Shown: one piece after another, positions 29,174 through 49,511 of the stretch
Numbering within the stretch: position 1 is the stretch's first letter
Layout of the letters: every line of letters begins with the position of its first letter
From: Curvibacter lanceolatus ATCC 14669
GTDB lineage: Bacteria > Pseudomonadota > Gammaproteobacteria > Burkholderiales > Burkholderiaceae_C
Length of the DNA: 64,000 nucleotides
Direction: 5' to 3'
NCBI RefSeq assembly: GCF_000381265.1
Contig: NZ_KB906260.1
Coordinates: forward strand, 1 to 64,000
Program-made: the position numbers and the translations under genes
The notes under the pieces: generated by a model
The model's database searches: none
Seen by the model: only the letters and a program-made list of their open reading frames with translations
Told to the model about the DNA's origin: nothing

Positions 29174-29241
29174 TTTCACGCCGGGGTGGCGGGGCGCGGC
29201 CCCCACCGTGCCCCAGTCTGAGGCCCCACCGGTCCGGGCAG

Positions 29242-29252
29242 TGCACCATTTT
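29242..29252 (+). promoter_or_regulatory. Possible NtrC half-site
   Basis: TGCACCATTTT matches the left half and spacer of the NtrC palindrome (TGCACC-N5-GGTGCA); the right half is not conserved. It lies about 140-160 bp upstream of the sigma-54 promoter, a normal distance for an enhancer site. Confidence 0.35.
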
Positions 29253-29254
29253 CC

Positions 29255-29276
29255 AACCTGCCTGAAGCCGCAGGTT
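29255..29276 (+). other. Inverted repeat downstream of uspA
   Basis: AACCTGC at 29255-29261 and GCAGGTT at 29270-29276 form a perfect 7-bp stem with an 8-base loop. No T-run follows. It may be a 3' mRNA structure of uspA. Confidence 0.4.
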
Positions 29277-29290
29277 CGGCCCGAACCCAG

Positions 29291-29316
29291 GCCCCGTCAC
29301 GGGGCCTTTTCTGTTT
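29291..29316 (+). terminator. Rho-independent terminator of uspA
   Basis: A 7-bp GC stem (GGCCCCG/CGGGGCC, 29291-29297 with 29301-29307, 3-base loop) is followed by TTTTCTGTTTTTT. It separates uspA from the atzF cluster. Confidence 0.85.
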
Positions 29317-29382
29317 TTTCCCCTCTGTAGGCCTGCTGCTGAGCGTTGGCTCGGTGCCCTCTCGCCGCTGGGCCCGGCAGGG

Positions 29383-29399
29383 TTGGCACAGCGTTTGCA
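29383..29399 (+). promoter_or_regulatory. Sigma-54 (RpoN) promoter of the biuret/triuret cluster
   Basis: TTGGCAC-AGCGT-TTGCA matches the -24/-12 consensus YTGGCAC-N5-TTGCW. The invariant GG (29385-29386) and GC (29397-29398) are exactly 10 bases apart. Transcription would begin near 29410, 23 bases before the atzF ATG. Such promoters need an activator such as NtrC, implying control by nitrogen limitation. Confidence 0.85.
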
Positions 29400-29432
29400 T
29401 TCCTTCTTGTATCCAAGCTTGAATGCATTGAC

Positions 29433-31154
29433 ATGGTGCACCATCCAACCTCAACGCCGACCACCGCGCCGCTGGCTCATACCGACACGGAGCCAGCTTG
29501 GCTTCATCGGCTGCACACCCCCCTGCAAACCAGCGCCGAAGGCGCATTGGCGGGATGGACGTTTGCGGTGAAAGACAACATCGACGTGGCGGGCCTGCCC
29601 ACCACGGCGGCCTGCCCCGCCTTCAGTCTGACCGCAACGTCGCACGCCACCGTGGTGCAACGCCTGCTGGCAGCCGGCGCCAGCCTGCGCGGCAAAACCA
29701 ACATGGACCAGTTTGCCTGCGGCCTGAACGGCACCCGTTCGCCCTACGGGCCGGTGCCGAATGCCTTCGACCCGCGCCTGGTCAGCGGGGGTTCCAGCTC
29801 GGGCTCGGCCTGGGTGGTGGCCACCGGCCAGGTGGACTTCGCCCTGGGCACCGACACCGCGGGCTCGGGCCGGGTGCCGGCCGGGCTGAACAACATCGTG
29901 GGCCTGAAACCTTCCAAGGGCCTGATCAGCACCCACGGCGTGCTGCCTGCGGCCCAAAGCGTGGACTGCGTGTCCATCTTTGCCCGCACGGTCGATGTGG
30001 CGGTGCAGGTGCTGCACACACTGGCCGCCCACGACCCGGCCGACCCCTACTCACGCGCCCTGCCCCTGCTCGACCAGCCCTTGCCCGCCGCCTTTGTGTT
30101 CGGCGTGCCCGACCGGCTGGAGTTCTTCGGCGACGAGCTGGCCCGCGCCGCCTTTGACGAGGCCCAGGCCCGCCTGCGCTCACTGGGTGGCACCCCGCGC
30201 ACGATCGACTACGCGCCGCTGGCCGAAGCCGCTGCCCTGCTCTACGAAAGCGCCCTGGTGGCCGAACGCTATGCCGCCGTGCGCGACTTCTTCGATGCCC
30301 ACGAAGCGGAGGTCATCGAGCCCGTGCGCAGCATCCTCGGGGCCGGCCGCCGCTACAGCGCGGCCGATCTGGTGCAGGCCCAGCTCCGCCTGAAGGCTTG
30401 CGCCCAGCGCGTGGTCGACCTGTGGCAGCAGATCGATGTGTTGCTGGTGCCCACCGCGCCCACCCACTACAGCATCGAAGCCATGCTGGCCGACCCGGTG
30501 ACGCTGAACCGCAACCTGGGCCAGTACACCAACTTCGTCAACCTGCTCGACTACGCGGCCCTCTCGGTGCCCAGCAGCCTGCGCCCTGACGGCCTGCCCT
30601 TCGGCATCACCCTGATCGGCCCTTGCGGCAGCGATCTGCAACTGGCCGAGCTGGGCCAGCGCTACCACCAGGCCAGCGGCCTGCCGCTGGGCGCCACCGG
30701 CCAGGCGCTGCCAGCGCCCCAGCCTGTGCAAGGCCTGCGCGCCAGCACCGCCCCGGCCAGCCTCAAGCTGGCGGTGGTCGGCGCCCACCTGTCGGGCATG
30801 CCGCTCAACCACCAGCTCACCGAGCGCGGCGCCACCCTGCTCGAAGCCACCACCACCTCGGCCCACTACCGGCTGTTTGCGCTGCCGGGCACCACACCGC
30901 CCAAACCCGGCCTGCAACGCCGCCCCGGCCAGGGCGCGCCCATCGCCGTCGAGGTGTGGCAGGTGCCCATGGAACAGGTCGGCAGCTTTCTGGCCGGGGT
31001 GCCCGCGCCACTGGGCCTGGGCAGCCTCGAATTGATCGACGGCCGATGGGTGCATGGCTTCATCTGCGAAGGCCACGCTCTGGAGGGCGCCACCGACATC
31101 ACCGCCCGCGGTGGCTGGCGAGCCTATGTGGCCTATACCAGCGCGAACCGCTGA
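29433..31154 (+). CDS. atzF: Allophanate hydrolase
   Basis: A 573-residue amidase-signature enzyme that hydrolyses allophanate and so finishes urea-type degradation to CO2 and ammonia. The N-terminal amidase domain has the full Ser-cisSer-Lys triad: Lys47 (FAVKDNID), cis-Ser121 in GGSSSGSA, nucleophile Ser145 in GTDTAGSGRVPA. The Gly/Arg after Ser145 is typical of allophanate hydrolases. The C-terminal domain (from about 440, KLAVVGAHLSGMPLN to WRAYVAYTSA) is the second AtzF domain. No urea carboxylase is fused or adjacent, so allophanate must come from biuret-type substrates. First gene of the cluster. Confidence 0.93.
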   Translation: MVHHPTSTPTTAPLAHTDTEPAWLHRLHTPLQTSAEGALAGWTFAVKDNIDVAGLPTTAACPAFSLTATSHATVVQRLLAAGASLRGKTNMDQFACGLNGTRSPYGPVPNAFDPRLVSGGSSSGSAWVVATGQVDFALGTDTAGSGRVPAGLNNIVGLKPSKGLISTHGVLPAAQSVDCVSIFARTVDVAVQVLHTLAAHDPADPYSRALPLLDQPLPAAFVFGVPDRLEFFGDELARAAFDEAQARLRSLGGTPRTIDYAPLAEAAALLYESALVAERYAAVRDFFDAHEAEVIEPVRSILGAGRRYSAADLVQAQLRLKACAQRVVDLWQQIDVLLVPTAPTHYSIEAMLADPVTLNRNLGQYTNFVNLLDYAALSVPSSLRPDGLPFGITLIGPCGSDLQLAELGQRYHQASGLPLGATGQALPAPQPVQGLRASTAPASLKLAVVGAHLSGMPLNHQLTERGATLLEATTTSAHYRLFALPGTTPPKPGLQRRPGQGAPIAVEVWQVPMEQVGSFLAGVPAPLGLGSLELIDGRWVHGFICEGHALEGATDITARGGWRAYVAYTSANR

Positions 31155-31246
31155 CGCCCCCCTGCCCCCGACACCCCATCACCCCCCATCACCCCCCATC
31201 ACCCACACCCATCACCCACACCCGTCCCCCGACCAGGAGCCCGCCC
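31155..31246 (+). repeat. Short tandem C-rich repeats between atzF and the binding-protein gene
   Basis: About three copies of a 10-bp unit (ACCCCCCATC, 31171-31200) are followed by two copies of ATCACCCACACCC (31199 to about 31224). The repeats lie 20-75 bp before the next ATG; the ribosome site GGAG is at 31236-31239. They could expand or contract by slippage and change spacing or mRNA structure. Confidence 0.6.
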
Positions 31247-32245
31247 ATGAGCCCAGCCCCCCGTTCCCTCCACCAACCGACCCGGCGCCACCTGCTGCAA
31301 GCCGGCAGCACCCTGGCCCTGGCGGCACCCGCCGTGCTGCGCGCCCAGAGCGGCCCCAAGATCCGCATCGGCTACTGGCCCATCGCCGCCGGCCTGCCCT
31401 TTTATGCGGCGGTGGAGATGGGTTTCTTCAAGGAGGCCGGCCTCAACGTCGAGGTGCAGCGCCACGCCGGCGCACAGCAGATCATGGAAGCGATGCTGTC
31501 GGACCGCTGCGACGGCAGCGCCAACGGCACCGGCTCGGCCAACATCGCCATCGGCGAGCTGGCGGCCCCGGGCACCTTCAAGATCTTCTGCTCCAACCCC
31601 AGCAACGCCAAGTACGTGCTCGATGAGGTGCTGGTGCCCAGCGCCAGCCCGGCCAAGGTGATGGCCGACCTCAAGGGCAAGCGCATCGCCTCGGGCCCCG
31701 GCATCCAGAACGTGACCCTGGCCAAGACCGTGCTGGAGCGCGGCGGCGCCACCGGCGCCACGGTCATCGAGCTGCCCATCGGCCAGCACGTGGCCGCCCT
31801 GGCCGCCGGTCAGGTCGATGGCTGCTACACCCTGGAACCCACCGGCACCATCGGGCGCCTGAACAGCAGCACCCGGGTGCTCGAGGCCGGCGTGATCTCC
31901 CGCTACGTGCTGGGCGACCCCATGGCGCCGTGGTTCGGCGGCTCGGCCTCGCTGACCTCGGCCTTCATCAAGAAGTACCCGGCCGAGGCCCAGAAGTTCA
32001 TCGCTGCCTATGCCAAGGGCGTGGCCCATGTGCGCAGCAAGCCGGCCGACGCGCGTCAGTACCTCAAGGGCTACACCGCCATCGAAGGCCCCCTGACCGG
32101 CGAGGTGCCCCTGGCGGCCTACACCCTCTACAACGAATTCACGGCGGCCGACATCGCGCACTTCCAGAAGTTCTTCGACCTGTTCTCGGACAAGGGCATC
32201 TTCGCCTCGCGTCTGGTGGTCGACAGCATGCTCTACAAGGCTTGA
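31247..32245 (+). CDS. NMT1/TauA-type ABC transporter substrate-binding protein
   Basis: A 332-residue periplasmic binding protein of the SsuA/TauA/NMT1 class. It carries a Tat-like signal (RRHLLQAGSTLALAAPAVLRA), then KIRIGYWPIAAGLPFYAAVE, FFKEAGLNVEV, DGSANGTGSANIAIGE and LKGKRIASGPGIQNVTLAK, all usual for this fold. It is followed five bases later by a matching permease and ATPase. Its place inside the AtzF/G/E/H cluster suggests it binds a small ureide such as biuret, triuret or a related amide; the ligand is inferred. Confidence 0.88.
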   Translation: MSPAPRSLHQPTRRHLLQAGSTLALAAPAVLRAQSGPKIRIGYWPIAAGLPFYAAVEMGFFKEAGLNVEVQRHAGAQQIMEAMLSDRCDGSANGTGSANIAIGELAAPGTFKIFCSNPSNAKYVLDEVLVPSASPAKVMADLKGKRIASGPGIQNVTLAKTVLERGGATGATVIELPIGQHVAALAAGQVDGCYTLEPTGTIGRLNSSTRVLEAGVISRYVLGDPMAPWFGGSASLTSAFIKKYPAEAQKFIAAYAKGVAHVRSKPADARQYLKGYTAIEGPLTGEVPLAAYTLYNEFTAADIAHFQKFFDLFSDKGIFASRLVVDSMLYKA

Positions 32246-32250
32246 GCGCC

Positions 32251-33126
32251 ATGGGCACCGCCACCCCAACACCGGCTGCGATGACGGCCACTACACCGGC
32301 CACGACGCCGCCCGCCACCCGCCCCTGGCAGGCGCCCTCGGCCCAGGCGCCGCAAGCCCCACGCCGCTTCGCCTCCTCGGCCTCGGCCGCCCTGCCCTTT
32401 GCCGGCCCCTTGCTGCTCTTCATCGTGTGGGATCTGGTGGTGCGCGTGGGCTGGGTCAAGCCCATCCTGCTGCCGGCGCCGGCCGACACCCTGGCCACCT
32501 TGATCACCGGGCTGGCCGGGGGCGCCCTGCTGGGCGATTTTCTGACCACCGTGTGGCGCACCGTGCAGGCCTTTGTGATCGCCGCCGTGCTCGGGGTGCC
32601 CCTGGGCGTGCTGTTGGGCAGCCAGGAGCGTGCCTACCGCAGCGTCGAGTTCCTGATCGACTTCTTCCGCTCCACGCCCTCGTCGGCCCTGATCCCGCTG
32701 TTCCTGATGATCTTCGGGGTGTCCGACGTCAACAAGATCGCCATCGCGGCCTTCGGCGCCTGGCTGATCGTGGTCTTCAACAGCGCCTACGGGGTGATCA
32801 ACGCACGCAAGCAGCGCGTGATGGCGGCCCAGGTCATGGGGGCCAGCCGCTGGCAGACCTTTCGCGACGTGCTGATCTGGGAAAGCCTGCAGCCCAGCTT
32901 TGTCGGCCTGCGCTCGGCCGTGTCCATGGCCCTGGTGATCGTCATCGTGGCCGAGATGTTCATCGGTGCCGACAGTGGCCTGGGCCACCGCATCATCAAT
33001 TCACAGCAGGTGATGAACGTGCGTGACATGTACGCCTCCATCCTGGCCGCAGGTGCCCTCGGCTATGTGCTCAACATCAGCTTCTTGCTGGCCGAACGCC
33101 GCATCGTCCACTGGAGCGGGAGATAA
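32251..33126 (+). CDS. SsuC-type ABC transporter permease
   Basis: A 291-residue inner-membrane permease. After an N-terminal Thr/Pro/Ala-rich cytosolic stretch (about 45 residues, longer than usual) come about six helices starting FAGPLLLFIVWDLVV. The EAA loop that docks the ATPase is in MGASRWQTFRDVLIWESLQPSFVGL. It is co-transcribed with the binding protein (5 bp before) and the ATPase (3 bp after) and forms one importer with them. Confidence 0.9.
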   Translation: MGTATPTPAAMTATTPATTPPATRPWQAPSAQAPQAPRRFASSASAALPFAGPLLLFIVWDLVVRVGWVKPILLPAPADTLATLITGLAGGALLGDFLTTVWRTVQAFVIAAVLGVPLGVLLGSQERAYRSVEFLIDFFRSTPSSALIPLFLMIFGVSDVNKIAIAAFGAWLIVVFNSAYGVINARKQRVMAAQVMGASRWQTFRDVLIWESLQPSFVGLRSAVSMALVIVIVAEMFIGADSGLGHRIINSQQVMNVRDMYASILAAGALGYVLNISFLLAERRIVHWSGR

Positions 33127-33129
33127 ACC

Positions 33130-33951
33130 ATGAGTGTGGTCGCCAACGCCCCTGTCTTCGCCGACCTGCCCACGCCGGCCTTTCGCCCAGGCCCGGCCGG
33201 AACCCACATCACCATCCGCGGCCTGACCAAGTACTTTGCCGGCTGGCCGCTGTACGAGAACTTCGACCTCGACATTCCCAAAGGCAAGATCGTCTCGGTG
33301 TTCGGGCCCAACGGCTGCGGCAAGAGCACCCTGATCAACATGATCGCCGGCCTGGTGCCCATCGATTCGGGCGAGGTGCTGTTCGACGGCAAGTCGCTCA
33401 AGGACACCCAGATCGGCTACGTGTTCCAGAACTACCGCGAGGCGCTGTTCCCCTGGATGCGCACCCTGGACAACATCGCCTACCCGCTCAAGCTGCAGGG
33501 CTGCAGCAAGGCCGAGGTGGACCGGCGCATGGAAGAGCTGGTGGCCTCGTTCGACGTCAAGTTCGACCTGCGCCGCTACCCCTACGAGCTGTCGGGCGGC
33601 CAGCAGCAAACCGCCTCCATCATGCGGGCGCTGGCGCCACGGCCCGAGGTGCTGTTCCTGGACGAGCCCTTCTCGGCGCTCGACTTCGAGATGACGCTGT
33701 TCATCCGCGAAAAGCTGCAGGAGGTGTTCATGCAGACCGGCACCACCATGCTGCTGGTCTCGCACGACCTCGAAGAAGCCGTCTACCTGGCCGACGAGGT
33801 GCTGCTGCTGACCAAGCGCCCCACCCGGGTGGCCGAGATCCTGCGCTACGACGCACCGCGCCCGCGCACCGTCGACACCCTCAGCGAGCCCGATTTCGTG
33901 AGCACGCGCCGGCGCAGCCTGGAGATCTTCCAACGCGAGGTGCGCCGATGA
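33130..33951 (+). CDS. SsuB-type ABC transporter ATPase
   Basis: A 273-residue ATPase. Walker A is GPNGCGKST, the Q loop YVFQNYREALFPWM, the signature LSGGQQQTASIMRAL, Walker B VLFLDEPFSALD and the switch His LVSHDLEEA. The Arg-Val that normally follows LSGGQQQ is Thr-Ala here. A roughly 25-residue N-terminal extension precedes the domain. It overlaps the next gene (atzG) by 4 bp, tying transport and catabolism together. Confidence 0.92.
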   Translation: MSVVANAPVFADLPTPAFRPGPAGTHITIRGLTKYFAGWPLYENFDLDIPKGKIVSVFGPNGCGKSTLINMIAGLVPIDSGEVLFDGKSLKDTQIGYVFQNYREALFPWMRTLDNIAYPLKLQGCSKAEVDRRMEELVASFDVKFDLRRYPYELSGGQQQTASIMRALAPRPEVLFLDEPFSALDFEMTLFIREKLQEVFMQTGTTMLLVSHDLEEAVYLADEVLLLTKRPTRVAEILRYDAPRPRTVDTLSEPDFVSTRRRSLEIFQREVRR

Positions 33952-34196
33952 GCCCGGACATCCCCCCCGAAGCCCTGGCCCGCTACGTGGAGGCCGCCGC
34001 CGACGCGCTGGGCCTGTCACTGACACCCGAGCAACGCCCCGGCGTGCTGGCCTTTTTCGGCATGGCGGCGCGCTTTGCCGCCGTGCTCGAAGCCACCGAG
34101 CTGCATCCGCACGATGAATCGGCCCTGCACTTCGAGCCCGTGGCCGTGCCACCGGCCCCACCCGCCGGGCCCACCGGAGGTGAACATGCCCTCTGA
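33948..34196 (+). CDS. atzG: AtzG-like small subunit (DUF4089)
   Basis: An 82-residue protein like AtzG, the small GatC-like partner that stabilises the AtzE amidase. The core is a helix pair (PEALARYVEAAADALGLSL, PGVLAFFGMAARFAAVLEA) followed by an extended FEPVAVPPAPP tail, as expected for a chain that wraps around the amidase. It overlaps the ATPase stop by 4 bp and the atzE start by 11 bp. Size and position directly before atzE make the call strong despite the low intrinsic information. Confidence 0.85.
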   Translation: MSPDIPPEALARYVEAAADALGLSLTPEQRPGVLAFFGMAARFAAVLEATELHPHDESALHFEPVAVPPAPPAGPTGGEHAL

Positions 34197-35622
34197 CGCC
34201 ACCCCCTGGCTGGGCCAGGACGCCAGCGCCATGGCCCAGGCCGTGCGCACCGGCCAGCTCAGCGCCAGCGCGCTGACCGAAGCCTGCCTGCAGCACATCG
34301 ACCAGAGCAACCCGCAGCTCAACGCCTTCACCGCGGTGCTGGTCGATCGGGCAAGGCAACGGGCGCGCCAGATGGATGCCGATCCGCTGCTGCGCCAGGG
34401 CCCGCTGGCCGGCGTGCCCTTTGCCGTGAAGAACCTGTTTGACATCGCCGGCCTGCCCACCCTGGCCGGCTCGCGCATCGAGCGCGACAGCCCACCCGCC
34501 AACGCGGACGCCCTGCTGGTGCGCCGGCTGGAGGCCGCAGGCGCGGTGCTGGTGGGCGCGCTCAACATGGACGAATACGCCTACGGCTTCACCACCGAGA
34601 ACAGCCACGAAGGCCCCTGCCGCAACCCGCACGACACGGCGCGCATCGCGGGCGGCTCGTCGGGCGGCTCGGGGGCCGCGGTGGCGGGTGGGCAGGTGCC
34701 GCTGAGCCTGGGCTCGGACACCAATGGCTCGATCCGCGTGCCGGCCTCGCTGTGCGGGGTGTTCGGCCTCAAGCCCACGTTCGGCCGCCTGCCGCGCACG
34801 GGCAGCTACCCCTTTGTGTCGAGCCTGGACCACCTGGGCCCGTTTGCCCGCTCGGTGCGCGACCTGGCCCTGGCCTACGACCTGATGCAGGGGCCTGAAG
34901 ACCCCCGGCTGGCCCACGACCCCGGCTGCGGCCAGCGCCCGGTGCAGGCCTGCAGCCCGTTGCTGACCCAAGGCCTGGCCGGCCTGCGCGTGGGCGTGCT
35001 CGGCGGCTGGTTCGAGGAGCAGGCCGGCGCCCCGGCCCAGCGCGCCGTGCAGCAGGTGGCCCAGGCCCTGGGCGCCACCACCCGCCACGAGCTGCCCCTG
35101 GTAGAGGCCGGGCGCGCGGCCGCCTTTGTCATCACCAATGCCGAGGCCGCCAGCGGCCACCTGAACGACCTGCGCCGCCGCGCCGACGACTTCGAGCCCC
35201 TGTCGCGTGACCGCTTTCTGGCCGGCGCGTTGATCCCGGCGGCCTGGGTGGCCCGCGCCCAGCGCGTGCGGCTGCGCTATGCCCAGGCCGTGGCGGCGGT
35301 GTTCCAGCAGGTGGACCTGCTGCTGGCCCCGGCCACCCCCTGTGCCGCCACACCGATCGGTGCCGAGACCCTGCAGCTCGGCGAGCGCCGACTGCCGCTG
35401 CGCCCCAGCATGGGCCTGCTCACCCAGCCCATTTCGTGCATCGGCCTGCCGGTGTGCAGCGTGCCGGTGTGGGGCTGCGACCCCGAGCTGCCCCACCTGC
35501 CCATCGGCGTGCAACTGATCGCCGCGCCCTGGCGCGAAGACCTGACCCTGCGCGCCGCCGCCGCGCTGGAGGCCCTGGGCCCGGCCCGGGCCCCGATCGC
35601 GCCGGATTTCCTGCCCCGATGA
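34186..35622 (+). CDS. atzE: AtzE-type amidase (1-carboxybiuret hydrolase catalytic subunit)
   Basis: A 478-residue amidase-signature enzyme. Lys82 (FAVKNLFD), cis-Ser158 in GGSSGGS and nucleophile Ser182 in [11 protein letters not shown] form the triad. With AtzG, the known homologue deaminates 1-carboxybiuret to 1,3-dicarboxyurea in the cyanuric acid route. Here no cyanuric acid hydrolase is present, so carboxybiuret would have to come from triuret. ATG 34186 follows a perfect GGAGG by five bases. It is distinct from AtzF: no C-terminal second domain and a longer GatA-like core. Confidence 0.87.
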
Positions 35623-36032
35623 GAGTGATTGCCATGCCCCACACCCCCTCCACCCTGCTGCCCATCAACCTGCCTGAAGTGCTCGCCGAGGTCCAGGCCG
35701 TCTTCGCCCGCTACGAAGACGCGCTGGTGCACAACCGCGTCGAGGTGCTCGACGAGCTGTTCTGGAACAGCCCGCACACCCTGCGCTATGGCGCCACCGA
35801 AAACCTGCTGGGCTACCAGGCCATCCAGGCCTTTCGCGCCGGCCGCTCGCCGCAAGGCCTGGCGCGCAGCCTGCACAACACCGTGATCACCACCTACGGG
35901 CCCGACTTTGCCACCGCCAACACCGAGTTCCGCCGCGCCGGCAGCACCCGCCTGGGGCGCCAAAGCCAGACCTGGATGCGCACGCCCGAGGGCTGGCGCG
36001 TGGTGGCCGCCCACGTGAGCCTGCTCGACTGA
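35619..36032 (+). CDS. atzH: AtzH-like protein (DUF3225, SnoaL/NTF2-like fold)
   Basis: A 137-residue NTF2-like protein of the DUF3225/HpxZ-AtzH type. Characteristic segments are [37 protein letters not shown] and [20 protein letters not shown]. These proteins accompany AtzE or HpxY amidases; their role is unclear but probably assists ureide amide hydrolysis. The ATG at 35619 overlaps the atzE stop (ATGA); an internal ATG at 35634 is an alternative giving MPHTPSTLL. Confidence 0.85.
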
Positions 36033-36120
36033 GCCCCTTTTTCTCTTGGGCAGCGTGGACCGGGGTTCCCGCTGTCAACCCTTGCAAGTGCCCCCGACCT
36101 GAACCCATGGAGCCCGAAAC
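36033..36120 (+). other. Gap between atzH and the BMP-type importer genes
   Basis: 88 bp. A search for a second sigma-54 promoter found none with correct GG-N10-GC spacing. A GGAG lies at 36109-36112, nine bases before the next ATG. No terminator is visible, so read-through from upstream is likely. Confidence 0.4.
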
Positions 36121-37236
36121 ATGAACCGCAAGCTGAACCGCCGTCTCGCCCTGCAAACCCTCGCCAGTACCGGCGCCGTGGCCTCGTTCGGCCCGCTGAG
36201 CCTGCTGGCCCATGCCCAGAAGCCGCTCACCGTCGGCGTGATCTACGTCGGCCCGCGTGACGACTACGGCTACAACCAGGCCCATGCCCAGGCCGCCGCC
36301 GAGCTCAAGAAGCTGCCCGGCATCAAGGTGGTCGAGGAAGAGAACGTGCCCGAGACCGCCGCCGTGCAAAAGACCATGACCGGCATGATCGCCCAGGACG
36401 GCGCCGGCCTGCTGTTCCCCACCTCCTTCGGCTACTTCGACCCGCACATCCTGGCCCTGGCGCCCAAGTACCCCGATGTGCGCTTTTCGCACTGTGGCGG
36501 TCTGTGGACCGAAGGCAAGCACCCCAAGAACGTGGGCAGCTTCTTCGGCTACATCGATGAGTGCCAGTACCTCAATGGCGTGGTGGCCGGCCACATGAGC
36601 AAGAGCCGCAAGATCGGCTTCGTGGCCGCCAAGCCGATTCCGCAGGTGCTGCGCAACATCAATGCCTTCTTGCTGGGCGCGCGCTCGGTGCACCCCGACA
36701 TCACCTGCAGCGTGATCTTCACGGGCGACTGGTCCATGGCCGTCAAGGAGGCCGAGGCCACCAACAGCCTGGCCGACCAGGGCGTGGACGTGTTCACCAT
36801 GCACGTCGACGGCCCCAAGGTGGTGGTCGAGACCGCCGCCAAGCGCGGCAAGATGGTCTGTGGCTACCACGCCAGCCAGGCCAAGCTGGCCCCGGCCGCC
36901 TACCTGACCGGTGCCGAATGGAACTGGCTCACCGCCTACAAGACCATCATCGAGGCCGCCCAGGCCGGCAAGCCGCACCCCAACTTCCTGCGCGGCGGCC
37001 TGAAGGAAGGCTACGTGAAGATGTCGCCCTATGGCAGCAGCGTGAGCGAGGCGGCCAAGAAGAACGCCGACGAGGTCAAGGCCAAGATGCTCGCGGGCAG
37101 CTTCGACATCTTCAAGGGCCCGCTCAAGGACAACAAGGGCAACACCATCCTGGCCGCCGGCAAGGTGCTCAAGCAGACCGACCTCGAGCTCGAAAAGATG
37201 AACTACCTCGTCGAGGGCGTGGTCGGCTCGATCTGA
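36121..37236 (+). CDS. BMP-family ABC transporter substrate-binding protein
   Basis: A 371-residue basic membrane protein (BMP/Med) family binding protein with a Tat-like signal (NRRLALQTLASTGAVASFG to AHA). It contains VGVIYVGPRDDYGYNQAHA, which supplies ligand contacts, and GSFFGYIDECQYLNGVVAGHMS. Known members bind nucleosides or purine-like compounds and work with two permeases and a double ATPase, as encoded downstream. In this cluster the ligand is more likely a linear ureide or related N-compound than a nucleoside; this is inference. Confidence 0.9.
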   Translation: MNRKLNRRLALQTLASTGAVASFGPLSLLAHAQKPLTVGVIYVGPRDDYGYNQAHAQAAAELKKLPGIKVVEEENVPETAAVQKTMTGMIAQDGAGLLFPTSFGYFDPHILALAPKYPDVRFSHCGGLWTEGKHPKNVGSFFGYIDECQYLNGVVAGHMSKSRKIGFVAAKPIPQVLRNINAFLLGARSVHPDITCSVIFTGDWSMAVKEAEATNSLADQGVDVFTMHVDGPKVVVETAAKRGKMVCGYHASQAKLAPAAYLTGAEWNWLTAYKTIIEAAQAGKPHPNFLRGGLKEGYVKMSPYGSSVSEAAKKNADEVKAKMLAGSFDIFKGPLKDNKGNTILAAGKVLKQTDLELEKMNYLVEGVVGSI

Positions 37237-37257
37237 CGCCCGCACGGCCCACCCATC

Positions 37258-38331
37258 ATGCGCAACGCCCTGCGGGAAATCGCTCTGCCCATCGGCGCCC
37301 TTGCGGCGGCGCTGCTGGTGTTCGGCGCACTGGTCTGGCTGGCCGGTGTGGATCCGTTCGACATGGCCTGGCTGCTCTTCAAAGGGGCCTTCGGTGATGC
37401 CTTCTCATGGCAGAACACCCTGCAACGGGCCGCCCCGTTGATGCTGACCGCGCTGTGCGTGGCCCTGCCGGCCCAGGCCGGCCTGGTGGTGATCGGGGGC
37501 GAAGGGGCGCTGGTGCTGGGCGGCCTGGCCTGCGCCGCGGCAGCCACCCAGCTCCCCCTGCCGGCCAACCTGGCCGGCAGCGTGCTGGCCTGCGTGGCCG
37601 GCGCCCTGGCCGGGGCGCTGTGGGTGATGCTGGCGGGCGCGTTGCGCCAGTACCGGGGCATCAACGAGACCATCAGCAGCCTGTTGCTGGCCTATGTGGC
37701 CATCGGGCTGTTCAAGCACCTGGTCGAAGGGCCGCTGCGCGACCCGGCCAGCCTGAACAAGCCGTCCACCCTGTCGCTGCCCGAAGGCCTGCGCATCGGT
37801 GGCATCGCGGGCTCCGATGTGCACTGGGGCCTGGTGCTGGGCGTGCTGGCCTGCTTGCTGCTGGGCGGCTGGCTGCGCCTGACCGCCTCGGGCTTTGCGC
37901 TGCGGGTGGTGGGGGGCAACCTGCGCACGGCCCAGCTCATGGGCCTGCCGGCCACCCGCCTGGTGCTGCTGGCCTGCGCCCTTGGGGGCGCCTGCGCCGG
38001 CCTGGCCGGCGCGGTCGAGGTGGCCGCCGTGCACACCAATGCCAACGCCTCACTGATCGCGGCCTACGGCTACGCGGGCATCCTGGTCTCGTTCATTGCC
38101 CGCCACCAGCCCCTGGCCATCGTGCCGGTGGCCATTCTGTTCGGCGGCTTTGGCGCGGCCGGCAGCCTGCTGCAACGCCGCCTCGGCCTGCCCGACGCCT
38201 CGGTGCTGGTGCTGCAGGGCCTGACCTTTGTCTTCATCCTGGCCAGCGAGGCCTTGCGCCAGGGCGAGCCGGCGGCGCTGTGGCGCCGCCTGTGGCCGGC
38301 CCGCCCCGCTTTGAAGGAGTCCAGCCCATGA
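37258..38331 (+). CDS. BMP-type ABC transporter permease 1
   Basis: A 357-residue permease with about nine hydrophobic segments (ALAAALLVFGALVWLAGVD, then GLVVIGGEGALVLGGLACA). The segments RQYRGINETISSLLLAYVAIG and GYAGILVSFIARHQPLAIVP are typical of YufP/NupP-type permeases. Its stop overlaps the next permease start by 4 bp. It pairs with that permease in the membrane. Confidence 0.92.
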   Translation: MRNALREIALPIGALAAALLVFGALVWLAGVDPFDMAWLLFKGAFGDAFSWQNTLQRAAPLMLTALCVALPAQAGLVVIGGEGALVLGGLACAAAATQLPLPANLAGSVLACVAGALAGALWVMLAGALRQYRGINETISSLLLAYVAIGLFKHLVEGPLRDPASLNKPSTLSLPEGLRIGGIAGSDVHWGLVLGVLACLLLGGWLRLTASGFALRVVGGNLRTAQLMGLPATRLVLLACALGGACAGLAGAVEVAAVHTNANASLIAAYGYAGILVSFIARHQPLAIVPVAILFGGFGAAGSLLQRRLGLPDASVLVLQGLTFVFILASEALRQGEPAALWRRLWPARPALKESSP

Positions 38332-39245
38332 ACGCCGATCAATGGATCACCCTGCTGGCCGCCATCGTGGGTGGGGCCTTGCGCGTCGGCGCGCCTTTCC
38401 TGTTCGTCAGCCTGGGCGAGTGCCTGACCGAAAAGTCGGGGCGCATCAACCTGGGGCTGGAGGGCGTGCTGGTGCTGTCGGCCATGGCCTCGTTCGGTGG
38501 CGCCTACCTCAGCGGTTCGCCCTGGGTGGGGGTGCTGTGCGGGGCCCTGGCGGGCGCCGCCCTGGCCAGCCTGCATGCGGGCCTGTGCAGCCTGCCCGGG
38601 GTCAACGACGTGGCCACCGGCATCGCCCTGATGCTGCTCGGCACCGGCCTGGCCTTCTACCTGGGCAAGCCCCTGATCCAGCCGCAGGCGCCGCAACTAC
38701 CCGCCCTGGCGCTGGGCCAATGGAGCAGCAGCCCCGCCGTGCAGGCCGCCTTGCAGGTGAATGCCCTGCTGCCGCTGGGCCTGGTGCTGGCCGGCCTGAT
38801 GAGCTGGGCCTTTGCCAACACCCGCATGGGCCTGTTGGTGCGCCTGGCCGGCGATTCGGCCGATGCCGCGCGGGCGCTGGGCTATTCGGTCGGTGGCATC
38901 CGCTGGGCCGCCACCGCCGGCGGGGGGCTGATCGCCGGCCTGGGCGGCGCCTCGCTCACGCTGTTCTACCCGGGCAGCTGGAACGAGGGCATCTCCAGCG
39001 GCCAGGGCCTGATCGCCGTGGCCCTGGTGATCTTTGCCCGCTGGAGCCCGCTGCGCTGCGTGGGGGCTGCCGCCCTGTTCGGCGGCGCTGGCGCCATCGG
39101 CCCGGCCCTGCAGTCGGTGGGCATCGGCTGGGGCTACCACCTCTTCAACACCGTGCCCTATGGGCTGACTCTGCTGATCCTGGTGATCACCTGCCGCCCC
39201 GGCAGCGTGGCCGCGGGCAGCCCAGGTGAACTGTCGTCACGTTGA
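38328..39245 (+). CDS. BMP-type ABC transporter permease 2
   Basis: A 305-residue permease of the YufQ/NupQ type, beginning [20 protein letters not shown] and containing [19 protein letters not shown], a conserved segment of this family, and [18 protein letters not shown]. Translation is coupled to permease 1 through ATGA. The biuret hydrolase gene follows after 25 bp. Confidence 0.92.
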
Positions 39246-39270
39246 CCTCTTGATCGAAACCAGCCTCGCC

Positions 39271-39999
39271 ATGAGCCCACTCCTGCCTACCCCCACCGCG
39301 CTCCACGTGGACGCCCAGCCCTACGCCTGGCCCTGGAACGGCGCCCTGCGCGCCGACAACACCGCCCTGATCGTGATCGACATGCAGACCGACTTCTGCG
39401 GCCCCGGCGGCTATGTCGACGTGATGGGCTACGACATTTCGCTCACCCGCGCCCCCATCCAGCCCCTGCGCCAGGTGCTGGCCCGGCTGCGCGCCCTGGG
39501 CTTTCTGGTGATCCACACCCGGGAGGGCCACCGCCCCGACCTGTCGGACCTGCCTGCCAACAAGCGCTGGCGCTCGCGCCAGATCGGCCGCGACGGCCTG
39601 GGCATCGGCGATGCCGGCCCCTGCGGCCGCATCCTGGTGCGCGGCGAGCCGGGCTGGGAGATCATCCCCGAGCTGGCCCCATTGCCCGGCGAGCTGGTGA
39701 TCGACAAGCCCGGCAAGGGCTCGTTCTATGCCACCGACCTGGACATGGTGCTGCGCCTGGCCGGCATCGAGAACCTGATCCTGGGCGGCATCACCACCGA
39801 TGTCTGCGTGCACACCACGATGCGCGACGCCAACGACCGGGGCTTCGAGTGCCTGCTGCTGTCCGACGGCACGGCCGCCACCGACCCTGCCAACCACCAG
39901 GCCGCGCTCAACATGATCACCATGCAGGGGGGCGTGTTCGGCGCCCACGCCAGCTCGAATCAGCTGCTGGAGGCCCTGGCGGGGCTTTCATCCATCTAG
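39271..39999 (+). CDS. biuH: Biuret hydrolase (isochorismatase-like)
   Basis: A 242-residue isochorismatase-like hydrolase. From memory it is strikingly like the characterised Rhizobium biuret hydrolase in its opening ([20 protein letters not shown]), [30 protein letters not shown] and [20 protein letters not shown]. The catalytic triad is Asp37 (IDMQTDF), a Lys in IDKPGKGSF (146 or 149) and Cys179 ([10 protein letters not shown]). It would convert biuret to allophanate plus ammonia, feeding AtzF. ATG 39271 fits the known N-terminus. It lies between the BMP permease and ATPase genes. Confidence 0.85.
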
Positions 40000-40014
40000 G
40001 CGCAGGAGCCCACC

Positions 40015-41631
40015 ATGCCCGACATGACCCACCCCACCCTGTCAGCCCAGCACCAGCCCCAGCATCCCATTGGCGCGCTGCCCGCCGGCACCGGCGCCCT
40101 GGCGCTGGACACCTACCGCCTCACCAAGCGCTTTGGCGCCTTCACCGCGCTGGACAGCGTGGACTTGAAGGTGGCCGCCGGCAGCGTGCACGCGTTGCTG
40201 GGCGAAAACGGGGCTGGCAAAAGCACGCTGGTCAAGTGCGTGGCCGGCTTCCAGCGGGCCGAAGTGGGCAGCGTGCTGATCGACGGGCGCGAGCAGGCCA
40301 TCAGCAACCCGGTGGTGGCCCGGGCCCTGGGCATCGGCATGGTGTACCAGCACTTCACGCTGGCCCCGGGCATGAGCGTGGCCGAGAACCTGCTGCTGGC
40401 CGGCGGCCAGGTGCCGGGCCTGATCCACTGGCGCGAGCGCCGCAGCGAACTCCAGCGCTTCATCGAATCCACACCGTTTCGCCTCGACCTGGAGGCCCGG
40501 CCGGCCGAGCTGGCGGCCGGCGAGAAGCAGAAGCTCGAACTGCTCAAGCAGCTGTACCTGCGCCCACGCCTGCTGATCCTGGACGAGCCCACCTCGGTGC
40601 TGACCCCGCAAGAGGCCAATGAGGTGCTGGGCCATGTGCGAGAGCTGGCGCGCCAGCGCCTGTGCACGGTGCTGATCATCACGCACAAATTCCGCGAGGT
40701 GATGGCCTTTGCTGATGCCGTGACCGTGCTGCGCCGCGGCCAGGCGGTGCTGCACGCCTCAGTGGGCGACACCAGCCCGGCCCGGCTGGCCCGCGCCATG
40801 ATGGGCGAGACCGAGGCATCTTCCGACGCCGCCCCCCACGCAGCGGCAGGCCAGCCCCCGCGCCGCGCCCTGGCCGCCGAGGCGCCCGTGGCGCTGGAGG
40901 TGCAAGGCCTGCAGGCCCCGGGCGACCGGGGTCTGCCCGCCGTGCACGATCTGAGCCTGCAGGTGCGGGCCGGCGAGATCCTGGGCGTGGCCGGTGTGTC
41001 CGGCAACGGCCAGCGCGAGCTGGTCGAAGCCCTGGTGGGGCAGCGCGCGCGCACGGCCGGCAGCGTGCGCGTGGCGGGCCAGCCCTACCTGGCCCGGCGC
41101 GAGGAAACCCGCCGCCTGCGCGTGCGCAGCCTGCCCGAAGAGCCGCTGCGCAACGCCTGCGTGGGCGAGCTCAGCGTGGCCCAGAACATGGCCTTGCGCG
41201 ATTTCGACCAGCCCCCGCTGAGCACCCACGGCTGGCTGCGACCGCGGCTGTGGCGCCAGCGTGCACGCGACTGGATTGCGGCCTACGGCGTCAAGACCCG
41301 CAGCGAAAACGCCCCGATCAAAAGCCTGTCGGGCGGCAATGTGCAGCGGGCCGTGCTGGCGCGCGAGCTGGCCGGCGACATCCAGGTGCTGATCGCGGCC
41401 AACCCGGTGTTCGGCCTGGACTTTGCCGCCGTGCGCGAGATCCACCAGCGCATCGTGCAGGTGCGCGAGCGCGGCGGTGCGGTGCTGCTGGTCAGCGAAG
41501 ACCTGGACGAACTGCTGGAGCTGGCGGACCGCCTGGTGGTGATGAGCGAAGGCCGCATCGTCTACGAAACCCCGGCCGCCGGCGCCGACCGACTGGAGCT
41601 GGGCGCCCACATGGGCGGTGGCGCGCATTGA
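40015..41631 (+). CDS. BMP-type ABC transporter ATPase with two nucleotide-binding domains
   Basis: A 538-residue fused ATPase like RbsA/NupO. Domain 1 is canonical: [36 protein letters not shown] and IITHKF. Domain 2 is degenerate, as in the family: the P-loop is replaced by [14 protein letters not shown], the signature is [15 protein letters not shown], and the Walker B Asp-Glu is replaced by [11 protein letters not shown]. Only one site is expected to hydrolyse ATP. It works with the BMP binding protein and the two permeases, despite the biuH gene inserted between them. Confidence 0.92.
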
Positions 41632-41701
41632 GGCGCCACCAGCCCCCCCTCAGCCCCCCACCCTCCCGCCACCCTGCCCCACACCTCTGCACGGAGCCCC
41701 C

Positions 41702-42388
41702 ATGAGCACCCTTACCCTGGCCGCCCGCCCCTTCGACTATGTGTTCGACCCGGCCCACACCGCCCTGCTGATCATCGACATGCAACGCGACTTCGTGGAG
41801 CCCGGGGGCTTTGGCGAGTCGCTGGGCAACGACGTGAGCCTGTTGCAGGCCATCGTGCCGGCCTGCCAGGCGGTGCTGCAGGCCTGGCGTGCGCTTGGCG
41901 GCTGCGTGGTGCACACGCGCGAGGCGCACCGCCCCGACCTCAGCGACTGCCCGCCGGCCAAGCGCCTGCGTGGCCAGCCGCGCCTGCGCATCGGCGACCC
42001 AGGGCCGATGGGGCGCATCCTGGTGGCCGGCGAGCCCGGCAACCAGATCATCCCCGAGCTGGCGCCGCAGCCCGGCGAGATCGAGATCGACAAACCCGGC
42101 AAGGGGGCTTTTTACGCCACCGGCCTGCATGAGCTGCTGCAGCAGCGCGGCATCAGCCACCTGATCGTGATGGGCGTGACCACCGAGGTCTGCGTGCAGA
42201 CCAGCCTGCGCGAGGCCAACGACCGCGGCTACGACTGCCTGTTGCTGGAAGACTGCACCGAGAGCTACTTTGCCGCCTTCAAGGCGGCCACCCTGGAGAT
42301 GGTGAGCGCACAGGGTGCCATCGTCGGCTGGGTGGCGGCCAGCCCCGCGCTGCTGGCCCTGCTGAGCCAGCCGCCGACAGCAGCCTGA
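41702..42388 (+). CDS. trtA: Isochorismatase-like amidohydrolase, candidate triuret hydrolase
   Basis: A 228-residue paralogue of the upstream biuret hydrolase. The triad is Asp26 (IDMQRDF), a Lys in IDKPGKGAF (131 or 134) and Cys164 ([15 protein letters not shown]). It shares [16 protein letters not shown] and [20 protein letters not shown] with BiuH but has its own [10 protein letters not shown] opening and [16 protein letters not shown]. Triuret hydrolase (TrtA) is a described enzyme of this superfamily encoded beside biuH and atzF; the neighbourhood and relatedness point to that role. A different ureide amidase (for example N-carbamoyl type) remains possible. Confidence 0.65.
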
Positions 42389-42400
42389 TACAGTCCTGCC

Positions 42401-43129
42401 GTGCACACCACAGGTCAACAGATTCCCCGCGCCGCGCGCGCTCCCGCCCGGCGTTCGCGCGCCGACGATGTCTACGATCAGCTCAAGGCCGACATCGCCG
42501 GCTTCCAGCTGGTGCCCGGCGACCGATTTTCCGAAAACGAGCTGTGCGATCGCCTGCAGGTGTCGCGCACGCCGGTGCGCCAGGCCCTGGTGCGCCTGCA
42601 GCAAGAGGGCTATGTCGAGGTTCAGTTTCGCAGCGGCTGGCGGGTGCTGCCCTTTGATTTCGAGCAGTTCGAGCAGCTTTACGACCTGCGCCAGGTGCTG
42701 GAATCGACCGCCGTGCAGCGCCTGTGCTCGGGCGACGACAAGGTCGACCAGGCGCTGCTGCGCCAGCTCGAAGCCATCTGGCTGGTGCCCGAGGCCGAAC
42801 GCAGCCACGACGGCGCCGAGGTCTCACGCTGGGACGAAGGCTTTCACTGCGCGCTGGTCGAGGCCGCCGGCAACCGCGAGATGGCGCGCGTGCACCGCGA
42901 GGTGACCGAGCGCATCCGCATCATCCGCCGCCTGGACTTCACCAAGCAGGACCGCATTGCCGCCACCTACGAAGAGCACGGCAAGATCCTGAGCGCCATC
43001 CGCTCGCACCGCAGCGACCAGGCCGTGATGCTCTTGCGCGCCCACATCCAGACCAGCCAGGCCGAGGTGCGCAAGATCACGCTGCACCAGGTGCACATGG
43101 CCCGGGCCGCGTCAGCGCCACCGGGCTGA
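42401..43129 (+). CDS. GntR/FadR-family transcriptional regulator
   Basis: A 242-residue regulator with a winged HTH (DDVYDQLKADIAGFQLVPGDRFSE..., SRTPVRQALVRLQQEGYV) and an all-helical FCD effector domain (LYDLRQVLESTAVQRL, WDEGFHCALVEAAGN, HGKILSAIRSH). FCD domains often bind metal plus an organic acid. The start is GTG at 42401, 12 bp after the hydrolase gene; a downstream in-frame ATG would lose the HTH. As the last gene it probably controls the cluster in response to a pathway intermediate. Confidence 0.9.
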   Translation: MHTTGQQIPRAARAPARRSRADDVYDQLKADIAGFQLVPGDRFSENELCDRLQVSRTPVRQALVRLQQEGYVEVQFRSGWRVLPFDFEQFEQLYDLRQVLESTAVQRLCSGDDKVDQALLRQLEAIWLVPEAERSHDGAEVSRWDEGFHCALVEAAGNREMARVHREVTERIRIIRRLDFTKQDRIAATYEEHGKILSAIRSHRSDQAVMLLRAHIQTSQAEVRKITLHQVHMARAASAPPG

Positions 43130-43152
43130 GCCCCTGTTGCCGGTGTGAGGGC

Positions 43153-44307
43153 TCAGCCCAGGGCCACCAGGCAGGCGTTGTGGAAGCGCGGCAGGCGCGG
43201 CAGGCCCGCTGCGTCCAATGTGTCGATCTCGCCCAGGGTCAGTGCCCCCAGCAGCGCGCCCTGCCCGCTTTGCCGCTGCAGGCTCTGCAGCTCCTGCAGG
43301 GCCTGCTCACCCAGGTGCATGCGTCGCCCGGCACAGTAGAAATGCAGCCAGCTGCGCGCAGGCGCGCTGCGCTGGCGTTCGGCCACAAAGGTGGCCAGTT
43401 CATCCACGGCCGTGCCTTGCCCGGCCGCGGGGGCACGCAGCAGGCGCATCAAGGTGTTGGGCGGAATCTCGCCCACGCAGATCAGCGAGCCGTCTTCGCC
43501 CAGCGCCACCGGGATGCGCACCAGCACATCCACCATCGTCACCAGGCCGAAAGGGAAATGCACCGCATAGTCGTAGAAGTTTTCACGCGTCAGGTGCACG
43601 CCGTATTCTTCGAGGATCAGTTGCTGGTAGACGTCGAAGGCCGGCCGATGGTCGATGGTGTCGATGCGGTTGCCCTCGCCCGAGGTGGCCGTCATCAGCG
43701 CGCGGCTGACCGGGTAGCCATGGCGGGTCAGCGCATCCACCGCCGGGGGCAGCAACAGGCTGATCACGCCCATGCCGGCCTGCCGCTCGGCATCGAACAG
43801 GCAAGCCATGGGCTGGAAGGTTTCGCTGCCCGCATTCACCCCCGAATAGCGCACTGGTTTTTCGAGCGCCATGTGGAGCTCGTCCACCAGCGAGCCCACG
43901 TCGGGCAGCATGCCGTCGAAGACCATGAACAGCAGCGGCTCGGCACCAGGCGCCACAGGCTGGGTGGCCTGCATGAAGCGCACGGCCTCGTGCCAGGCCT
44001 CGCGCCCCGCAGCATCGAGCACGGGCTGAAACAGCCAGGGGGGCATGGGGGCCAGGCACAGCAGCAGCACCTGGTCGGTGACAAAGCCCTGGGCGGTGAA
44101 CAGGCTGGGGAACACCGCCCCCAACAGTGGCACGACGTGGTCGCGGCAGGCGGCCTGAAGGCTGGGCACCCGGTCGGCCAAGGCTTCGGGCACCAGGGCC
44201 AGCACGCCCATGTCGGGCCAGCGGGCCTGCCAGGCCGCCAAGCTGACCGACAAGGTATCAGACAGATCGGGAAGATCGGCAGGGATCAGGTGCTGGGCGG
44301 CAAACAT
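43153..44307 (-). CDS. FIST-domain protein
   Basis: A 384-residue protein of the FIST (F-box intracellular signal transduction) type: an N-terminal domain around GAVFPSLFTAQGFVTDQVLL and VRYSGVNAGSETFQP, and a C-terminal domain around GEGNRIDTIDHRPAFDVYQQL and GEIPPNTLMRLL. FIST domains are thought to bind small ligands such as amino acids; in other proteins they are fused to signalling outputs, but here they stand alone. The gene lies 66 bp after the FAD-oxidase stop and may end that operon, so it could report on the imported substrate. Confidence 0.8.
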   Translation of the reverse strand: MFAAQHLIPADLPDLSDTLSVSLAAWQARWPDMGVLALVPEALADRVPSLQAACRDHVVPLLGAVFPSLFTAQGFVTDQVLLLCLAPMPPWLFQPVLDAAGREAWHEAVRFMQATQPVAPGAEPLLFMVFDGMLPDVGSLVDELHMALEKPVRYSGVNAGSETFQPMACLFDAERQAGMGVISLLLPPAVDALTRHGYPVSRALMTATSGEGNRIDTIDHRPAFDVYQQLILEEYGVHLTRENFYDYAVHFPFGLVTMVDVLVRIPVALGEDGSLICVGEIPPNTLMRLLRAPAAGQGTAVDELATFVAERQRSAPARSWLHFYCAGRRMHLGEQALQELQSLQRQSGQGALLGALTLGEIDTLDAAGLPRLPRFHNACLVALG

Positions 44308-44373
44308 GGGCACGGTGAGGTTCTGGCAGAACGCACATTCTCACATGCGGCCCGGCCGCTGGCGCGCGCCCCC

Positions 44374-45735: not shown

Positions 45736-45787
45736 GGTGGGGTCTCCGGAAAGCTGGGGAGGATCAAAGAGTGCTCAGGGAACAGGC

Positions 45788-47460: not shown

Positions 47461-47481
47461 GGCGGGGCTTTCCGGATCGAA

Positions 47482-47507
47482 GCGGCCTGTGAGCGGGCAC
47501 AGGCCGC
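47482..47507 (-). other. Strong intercistronic hairpin
   Basis: GCGGCCTGTG (47482-47491) and CACAGGCCGC (47498-47507) form a perfect 10-bp stem with a 6-base loop. No T-run follows in either direction. Its position just after the binding-protein stop and before the ATPase suggests an mRNA-stabilising or attenuating structure, like those that raise binding-protein levels in other ABC operons. Confidence 0.65.
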
Positions 47508-47517
47508 CCTCAGCAAG

Positions 47518-47555
47518 GTCAATGCAGCAGAGTCAATGCAGCAGGGTCAAGGCAG
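47518..47555. repeat. 14-bp tandem repeat at the 3' end of the binding-protein gene
   Basis: GTCAATGCAGCAG occurs at 47518-47530 and 47532-47544 (14-bp period), with a degenerate third copy GGTCAAGGCAG at 47545-47555 that covers the stop codon. This looks like local duplication of the gene end. Confidence 0.7.
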
Positions 47556-49483: not shown

Positions 49484-49511
49484 GGGGGTTCCTTGGGTTC
49501 AACGCCGGGGT

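Follow-up and report, generated by a model that had tools for sequence, protein, structure and literature searches.

Triuret and biuret are impurities of urea fertiliser. Enzymes that degrade them are known from several bacterial gene clusters, with which we compare an operon of fourteen genes in a stretch of 64,000 nucleotides from Curvibacter lanceolatus ATCC 14669 (contig NZ_KB906260.1, positions 1 to 64,000, forward strand; the whole stretch is hereafter called the window, and the genome assembly comprises 6.8 Mb). We interpret the locus as a complete operon for the import and mineralisation of triuret and biuret, probably controlled by nitrogen, and give this reading a probability of roughly 0.8; it rests on family assignments, diagnostic residues, conserved gene linkage and a conserved promoter, all of which were computed here from sequence.

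Herbaspirillum sp. BH-1 and Rhizobium leguminosarum carry trtA-biuH-atzF operons (PMC7948467), which like the window bring TrtA, BiuH and AtzF together, freeing all four nitrogens of triuret. Nine Herbaspirillum loci (L111 to L119) share with the window a BMP-type importer, an NMT1-type importer and gntR; they lack atzE within the span and carry a probable trtB directly after trtA, whereas the window has atzGEH instead. The atzF-(ABC)-atzGEH clusters of Comamonadaceae and other Burkholderiales show the same architecture as the window: an allophanate hydrolase gene stands upstream of atzG-atzE-atzH, an ATP-binding cassette (ABC) transporter lies between them in about half of the cases, and ABC transporters and “amidase enzymes” follow downstream (PMC6219798). 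The accessible text of that 2018 paper assigns these clusters no substrate; in the window, the downstream “amidases” correspond to BiuH and TrtA. The atzDGEHF cyanurate cluster of Pseudomonas sp. ADP (PMC6834077) resembles the window in AtzG, AtzE, AtzH, AtzF, a sigma-54 promoter and a related BMP-type protein, AtzT, but the window lacks AtzD, has BiuH in addition, would draw its carboxybiuret from TrtA, and has a GntR-type adjoining regulator in place of AtzR. Ammonia-oxidising bacteria and comammox Nitrospira possess trtA-trtB-biuH-atzF with bmpA-nupABC (PMC12625717); they share TrtA, BiuH, AtzF and the BMP-type importer with the window, and gntR is among the annotated neighbours. The ammonia oxidisers have trtB, whereas comammox Nitrospira have none and carry allFGHK. 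The accessible part of that paper does not describe atzGEH in the operon, and its abstract mentions atzH once beside trtA and biuH.

What is new here is that the window operon contains AtzGEH, in contrast to Herbaspirillum-type operons, in which an AtzH-like gene, probably trtB, directly follows trtA; a pattern by which the pocket residue Arg66 of AtzH is retained or lost in step with AtzE in trtA/biuH operons; and a Gln in the BMP protein where purine-binding relatives have Glu. Neither AtzGEH in a TrtA operon nor a tie between Arg66 and substrate choice was found in the accessible parts of the literature searched, whose coverage leaves subscription papers outside.

Two hydrolases corresponding to BiuH and TrtA

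A preliminary description of the window had listed a biuret-hydrolase look-alike and a candidate TrtA. Triuret hydrolases of the TrtA type act on triuret and scarcely on biuret. Tassoulas et al. have published the residues that separate TrtA from BiuH (PMC7948467), and each of the two isochorismatase-fold proteins carries a full set: the protein encoded from 41702 has the TrtA residues F35, N41, A134, E160, Y187, Q202 and I205 (7/7) as well as the catalytic D24, K129 and C162, and the protein encoded from 39271 has the BiuH residues Y, Y, S, D, T, Q and V at the same seven positions (7/7), with the catalytic residues kept. The 39271 protein passes the BiuH equivalog model NF050097 (413.7 bits; cut-off 370), which the 41702 protein fails with 263 bits; their best solved relatives are BiuH (6azo) and TrtA (6xix), respectively. 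In a tree of 50 rows, which represent about half of the sequences at hand and among which the row of the own-genome paralogue OWN_L004 was poorly extracted, the 39271 protein falls inside a single BiuH clade (support 96/99), and the 41702 protein belongs to a group of 15 rows (100/99) together with Herbaspirillum TrtA (6xix), 14 of these rows being TrtA-type and one the aberrant L103, which lacks the catalytic Cys. This comparison with characterised BiuH and TrtA, which the preliminary description had proposed, places neither hydrolase in an unrelated isochorismatase family; judged by sequence, the 39271 protein is BiuH and the 41702 protein is TrtA.

The same distinction holds among relatives. 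In a sample of 399 genomes of the order, TrtA relatives (E <= 1e-30) occurred in 59, and 56 loci were fetched. These loci encode 82 isochorismatase sequences, of which 52 are TrtA-type (50 at 7/7 and two at 6/7), 25 are BiuH-type (23 at 7/7 and two at 6/7), and five fit neither type (L103, L106, L107, L109 and L110). The last four of these belong to another isochorismatase group, in which Glu stands at the position of TrtA Q202 and Tyr replaces K132.

Because both hydrolases place as BiuH and TrtA, triuret and biuret are the probable entry compounds, as the preliminary description had proposed, and the absence of an AtzD-family match supports this as well. A profile search with PF09663, the cyanuric acid hydrolase family (which also covers barbiturases), gave zero matches in the window genome; the search itself works, matching 18 of 46 AtzE-bearing genomes (18/45 apart from the window genome, G000), with some of the 18 matches low-scoring and one a fragment. 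The cluster had been said to have no cyanuric acid hydrolase, which agrees with this result, and its interpretation as a cyanurate operon was rejected on this whole-genome result. No AtzD-family match was found in the nine Herbaspirillum genomes either.

Organisation of the operon and proposed pathway

Gene coordinates bear out the fourteen co-directional genes noted earlier: all lie on the + strand between 29433 and 43129, and every intergenic gap is at most 92 bp or an overlap. AtzF, AtzG, AtzE and AtzH each score above the cut-off of the family model, so that their earlier identification stands and they are, by sequence, genuine members of their families. The features are as follows.

29384-29399, + strand: sigma-54 -24/-12 promoter match TGGCACAGCGTTTGCA; perfect pattern match, atzF start codon 33 bp downstream
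29433-31154, + strand: atzF, allophanate hydrolase with C-terminal domain; TIGR02713 743.7 bits (cut-off 511.05), PF21986, PDB 4gyr E 3.6e-147
31247-32245, + strand: NMT1/SsuA-type substrate-binding protein; PF09084, PF13379, PDB relatives weak
32251-33126, + strand: ABC permease of the NMT1-type importer; PF00528
33130-33951, + strand: ABC ATPase of the NMT1-type importer; PF00005
33948-34196, + strand: atzG, carboxybiuret hydrolase small subunit; PF13318 47.0 bits (cut-off 24)
34186-35622, + strand: atzE, 1-carboxybiuret hydrolase; TIGR02715 654.3 bits (cut-off 425.75), PDB 6c62 (AtzE) E 1e-159
35634-36032, + strand: atzH, dicarboxyurea decarboxylase type; PF11533 202.3 bits (cut-off 27), NF033625 (AtzH/HpxZ) 212.3 bits (cut-off 135), PDB 6bjt (AtzH) E 4e-51
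36121-37236, + strand: BMP-type substrate-binding protein, AtzT/PnrA-like; PF02608, PDB 6pi5 (AtzT) E 4.9e-64, Gln at AtzT position 165
37258-38331, + strand: ABC permease 1 of the BMP-type importer; PF02653
38328-39245, + strand: ABC permease 2 of the BMP-type importer; PF02653
39271-39999, + strand: biuH, biuret hydrolase; NF050097 as above, PDB 6azo E 2.1e-109, 7/7 BiuH residues, BiuH clade
40015-41631, + strand: double ABC ATPase of the BMP-type importer; NF047930 and RbsA-like models, under equivalog cut-offs
41702-42388, + strand: trtA, triuret hydrolase; PDB 6xix (TrtA) E 2e-91, 7/7 TrtA residues, catalytic set kept, groups with TrtA
42401-43129, + strand: gntR, transcriptional regulator with GTG start; GntR-type models, all shown ones under cut-offs

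We infer which substrates and importer ligands are involved, and that carboxybiuret passes from TrtA to AtzEG. In the pathway that we propose, TrtA would convert triuret to 1-carboxybiuret with release of one ammonia, AtzE with AtzG would convert 1-carboxybiuret to 1,3-dicarboxyurea with release of a second ammonia, AtzH would decarboxylate 1,3-dicarboxyurea to allophanate, and AtzF would release the last two ammonia from allophanate, for an overall yield of four NH3 and three CO2 per triuret. The individual steps accord with published statements: AtzEG is stated to act on carboxybiuret (PMC7948467), and the product of AtzEG is converted to allophanate by AtzH (PMC6219798). The TrtA product carboxybiuret is unstable and turns into biuret, its half-life being about 20 min (PMC7948467); BiuH would form allophanate from imported biuret and from any biuret that arises by this spontaneous loss of CO2. 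As all pathway genes are present in the operon, triuret could therefore give four ammonia bypassing biuret.

Conservation of gene linkage

Gene linkage was followed in the 50 TrtA loci of the order sample, defined by 6 or 7 of the 7 residues, and in the best 80 of a larger number of loci from a scan of named genomes, ranked by likeness to Herbaspirillum TrtA; the combined set comprises 127 unique TrtA loci after removal of three duplicates. TrtA is thus found in 50 of the 399 order genomes, and biuH accompanies it in 24 of these 50 loci and in 94 of the 127. Among the 24 order loci with biuH, 22 have the BMP protein, and the two that do not run into contig ends; none of the 26 loci without biuH has it. 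An importer tied to trtA alone was therefore ruled out: presence tracks biuH. In the combined set, 85 of the 94 biuH loci have the BMP protein; seven of the remaining nine are cut at the locus edge, L163 is ambiguous, and L126 is a clear counter-example, having biuH and trtA and no BMP protein within ~9 kb upstream. The converse case, a BMP protein with trtA and without biuH, occurs once in the 127 (L127). The gntR gene often adjoins trtA in relatives.

AtzE is encoded in 37 of the 127 unique loci, 33 of them with atzH; the rule that atzE always comes with atzH, which held in 17/17 cases of the order sample, was thereby ruled out. The NMT1 binding protein occurs in 24 of the 127, seven of those with atzE. 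A set like that of the window (biuH, BMP protein and its ATPase, atzE, atzH, NMT1 protein and gntR) was found in at least seven loci, a lower bound because the flanks were limited. Genome by genome, the order sample contains 30 genomes with TrtA and AtzE, 20 with TrtA only, 16 with AtzE only and 333 with neither; AtzE is thus present in 30/50 TrtA genomes vs. 16/349 others (odds ratio 31, kinship not corrected). Of the 16 genomes with AtzE and no TrtA, seven match the AtzD family.

The two halves of the operon also occur apart. The set atzF, NMT1 importer, atzGEH and gntR is complete in genomes G152 and G250 and partial in G138 and G237 (atzG by eye), and no TrtA, BiuH (E <= 1e-30) or AtzD-family match was found in these genomes; in G049, the two halves form separate, convergent operons. 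On this evidence, the window operon has the appearance of two fused modules, one consisting of atzF, the NMT1 importer and atzGEH, and the other of the BMP importer, biuH and trtA. In loci L276, L277, L278 and L281, the NMT1 importer stands with atzE and gntR; L277 and L278, which also hold atzF and atzH, are complete. The genomes of these loci gave no TrtA, BiuH or AtzD-family match.

In other neighbourhoods of trtA, the gene families were named by eye. TrtA genes stand beside FdrA-like, DUF1116-like, DUF2877-like and carbamate-kinase-like genes in L069, L070, L076, L080, L084, L087, L089, L092, L094, L096 and L100, mostly outside the BMP/biuH operon, which L069 and L070 hold too; a possible meaning of this neighbourhood is an energy-saving phosphorolytic route. 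A formamidase/aliphatic-amidase-like gene is common to eight related loci (L056, L063, L065, L069, L070, L075, L077 and L078); in L069, it lies between permB and biuH, a place at which the window has no gene.

A conserved sigma-54 promoter

The sigma-54 promoter reported earlier ahead of the cluster was recovered as a perfect match to the searched pattern, TGGCAC-N5-TTGCW, one base past the start that the preliminary description had given. The pattern occurs twice in the window vs. 0.21 expected in shuffles, and 16 times in the whole genome vs. once for the reversed control. Sufficient upstream sequence was available for 83 loci, 56 of which begin with bmp or atzF (55 unique after duplicate removal). 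A site with at most two mismatches lies upstream of 49 of these 55 unique related operons (reversed control, 3/55), and a site with at most one mismatch upstream of 29 (reversed control, 0). A scan of 29100-43300 for sigma-70-type promoters found none, and terminator-like sites in the same scan numbered 9 vs. 5.4 expected. The operon is probably nitrogen-controlled: a sigma-54 promoter would restrict expression to times of nitrogen need, presumably through NtrC, and the GntR protein would be the likely substrate sensor.

An identical 16-base sigma-54 site, spacer included, at 51982-51997 on the - strand heads a second cluster, also on the - strand (genes 43153-51887), which encodes an FMN-reductase-like protein, a cytosine-deaminase-like amidohydrolase, a creatininase family protein, an NMT1-type ABC importer, an FAD-binding oxidase and a FIST protein. 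A RutR-like TetR regulator and a deaminase are encoded upstream of it. This cluster is possibly a co-regulated pathway for a nitrogen compound.

Two importers

The preliminary description had called the import systems the least described part of the unit. This no longer applies to the BMP-type importer, which was reported beside trtA/biuH in 2025 (PMC12625717), and it stands for the NMT1-type importer, which may serve another compound. The BMP-type importer, whose genes are interleaved with biuH and trtA, most likely imports biuret and/or triuret. The closest solved relatives of its binding protein are AtzT, which binds guanine and 2-hydroxyatrazine (PMC6834077), and 3s99, which carries adenine. 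The window protein has Gln165, His218 and Asp220 in the pocket and differs in this from AtzT of Pseudomonas sp. ADP. After duplicate removal, 79 unique operon BMP proteins (from 88) and 33 unique other BMP proteins (from 37) could be compared at AtzT position 165, a guanine contact: Gln is present in 75 of the 79 operon proteins, including that of the window, with Ser in three, Thr in one and Glu in none, whereas the others have Glu in 24, Leu in nine (remote proteins whose alignment is unsure) and Gln in none. As the operon BMP proteins are related to each other, the Gln165 cases are not independent events. With its Gln165, this BMP protein is, judged by sequence, a candidate dedicated uptake protein for biuret or triuret.

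AtzH, TrtB and pocket residue 66

The AtzH pocket comprises nine residues (Y22, R46, R63, R66, R73, F94, R96, Q106 and Q108), all identical in the window AtzH (YRRRRFRQQ), Arg66 included; its nearest relative among the rows compared is from Variovorax (82% identity). The nine Herbaspirillum loci have the same operon without atzE, and the AtzH-like gene directly after trtA is probably trtB, because every other gene of that operon has an assignment and trtB reportedly accompanies trtA (PMC7948467). The window AtzH, the single AtzH-family match in its genome, lacks the features of the TrtB type: its gene precedes bmp, it retains Arg66, and AtzE is present.

Counted over unique AtzH sequences, Arg66 follows AtzE closely within trtA/biuH operons. 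It is kept in 35/35 AtzH proteins with AtzE in the locus and lost in 48/49 with no AtzE in the locus; the exception is Devosia L184, in whose genome AtzE is located elsewhere. A search for AtzE (E <= 1e-100) in 42 named genomes came out negative for 40, and AtzE was likewise not found in the seven order genomes with an Arg66-less AtzH in a trtA/biuH operon; besides that of L184, the genome of L132 has AtzE, yet its AtzH is without Arg66. Outside trtA/biuH operons, Arg66 is kept in 20/21 AtzH proteins with AtzE present (the exception being L230), in 3/3 where AtzE is cut at a contig end, and in 17/17 with no AtzE in the locus. By the last figure, absence of AtzE does not by itself entail loss of Arg66, and a rule to that effect was rejected; the loss is a specific feature of trtA/biuH operons. 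Six pocket residues (Y22, R46, R63, R73, Q106 and Q108) are invariant in 87 rows, and three further AtzH proteins (L216, L218 and L234) differ at one or two of them; position 96 is altered in most of the TrtB-like group and unaltered in other Arg66-less lineages. The TrtB-like proteins group together in a first AtzH tree (99/97), PDB 2owp included, and the grouping is weak in a larger tree. The best tree requires five changes at position 66 (5 to 7 in bootstraps), whereas well-supported branches by themselves force only one, so that the independent losses may be fewer than the best tree suggests. PDB 2owp (Bxe_B1374), a structural-genomics entry, has Cys at position 66.

On balance we lean towards a reading in which a single DUF3225 fold occurs with two specificities, that of AtzH and that of the Herbaspirillum-type carboxybiuret decarboxylase TrtB, and Arg66 is the switch between them; the window operon would use AtzGEH in place of TrtB to remove the TrtA product, and 2owp would be an unrecognised TrtB structure. 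On this view, Arg66 would be retained in the presence of AtzEG, whose product dicarboxyurea bears two charges. In trtA/biuH operons that lack AtzEG, the substrate would be carboxybiuret with its single charge, and Cys, Leu, Val, Thr or other residues take the place of Arg66; retained Arg66 may stop AtzH from wasting carboxybiuret. Arg66Ala and Arg66Lys AtzH are not among the variants reported as impaired in the accessible account of the AtzH cascade (PMC6219798), and the claim made for Arg66 is therefore limited to specificity and does not extend to catalysis; it concerns activity towards carboxybiuret, which the published assay did not quantify separately.

Alternative explanations

Several points weigh against reading the locus as a single operon for triuret and biuret. 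The module of atzF, NMT1 importer, atzGEH and gntR stands in genomes that yielded no TrtA, BiuH or AtzD-family match, so AtzGEH and the NMT1 importer may serve another compound; NCBIfam (NF033625) annotates AtzH as HpxZ of oxalurate catabolism; four of the 37 unique TrtA loci with AtzE have no AtzH; in 9 of the 46 AtzE genomes, TrtA and an AtzD-family match are both absent; the window BMP protein retains a large part of a pocket of the purine type (S97, F98, N169 and W194); and NtrC sites with at most two mismatches are no commoner in the window than chance (11 vs. 9.74 expected). The self-standing module, complete in G152 and G250 and partial in G138 and G237, the convergent halves in G049 and the HpxZ annotation would all suit an operon in which two pathways share one AtzF: BMP importer, BiuH and TrtA would handle biuret and triuret, with carboxybiuret merely losing CO2, and the NMT1 importer and AtzGEH would handle another carboxylated ureide, such as an oxalurate-like acid. 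We regard this division as unlikely, though it is the most serious competitor, since 15 of the 127 unique loci have atzE no more than 500 bp from trtA, with the NMT1 binding protein in none of these fetched spans; AtzE and TrtA co-occur strongly; Arg66 of AtzH tracks AtzE within trtA/biuH operons; and G340 and G191 have TrtA, AtzE, AtzH and only one isochorismatase match (E <= 1e-30), so that BiuH is missing at this cut-off.

A purine or nucleobase salvage unit, whose BMP importer takes up purines and whose hydrolases act on oxidation products such as intracellular urate-derived triuret, would explain why the closest solved BMP relatives bind guanine (AtzT; PMC6834077) or carry adenine (3s99), and triuret is hypothesised to arise from purine or urate oxidation (PMC7948467, PMC12625717). 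The prevalence of Gln at AtzT position 165 in operon proteins vs. Glu in most others argues against it, as does the fact that family-model searches identified no purine-degrading enzyme among the fourteen genes, and we judge it improbable. Very improbable, finally, is a cluster that has nothing to do with biuret or triuret and whose two isochorismatases only resemble BiuH and TrtA while acting on other substrates: isochorismatase-fold enzymes are diverse, and the genome has 11 PF00857 matches (some of them pieces of one gene), but the full diagnostic residue sets, the equivalog-level BiuH score and the tree placement all speak against it. An operon for import and mineralisation of triuret and biuret is our preferred reading.

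Implications

Our analysis supplies a putative substrate for a gene arrangement that was described in 2018 with no substrate assigned, and sets apart two ways in which the unstable TrtA product carboxybiuret would be handled. The Arg66 pattern amounts to a one-residue prediction, which would let annotators separate AtzH from TrtB-like proteins, both of which belong to PF11533. TrtA is not rare in the order (50/399 genomes), and such bacteria may meet triuret and biuret in urea fertiliser.

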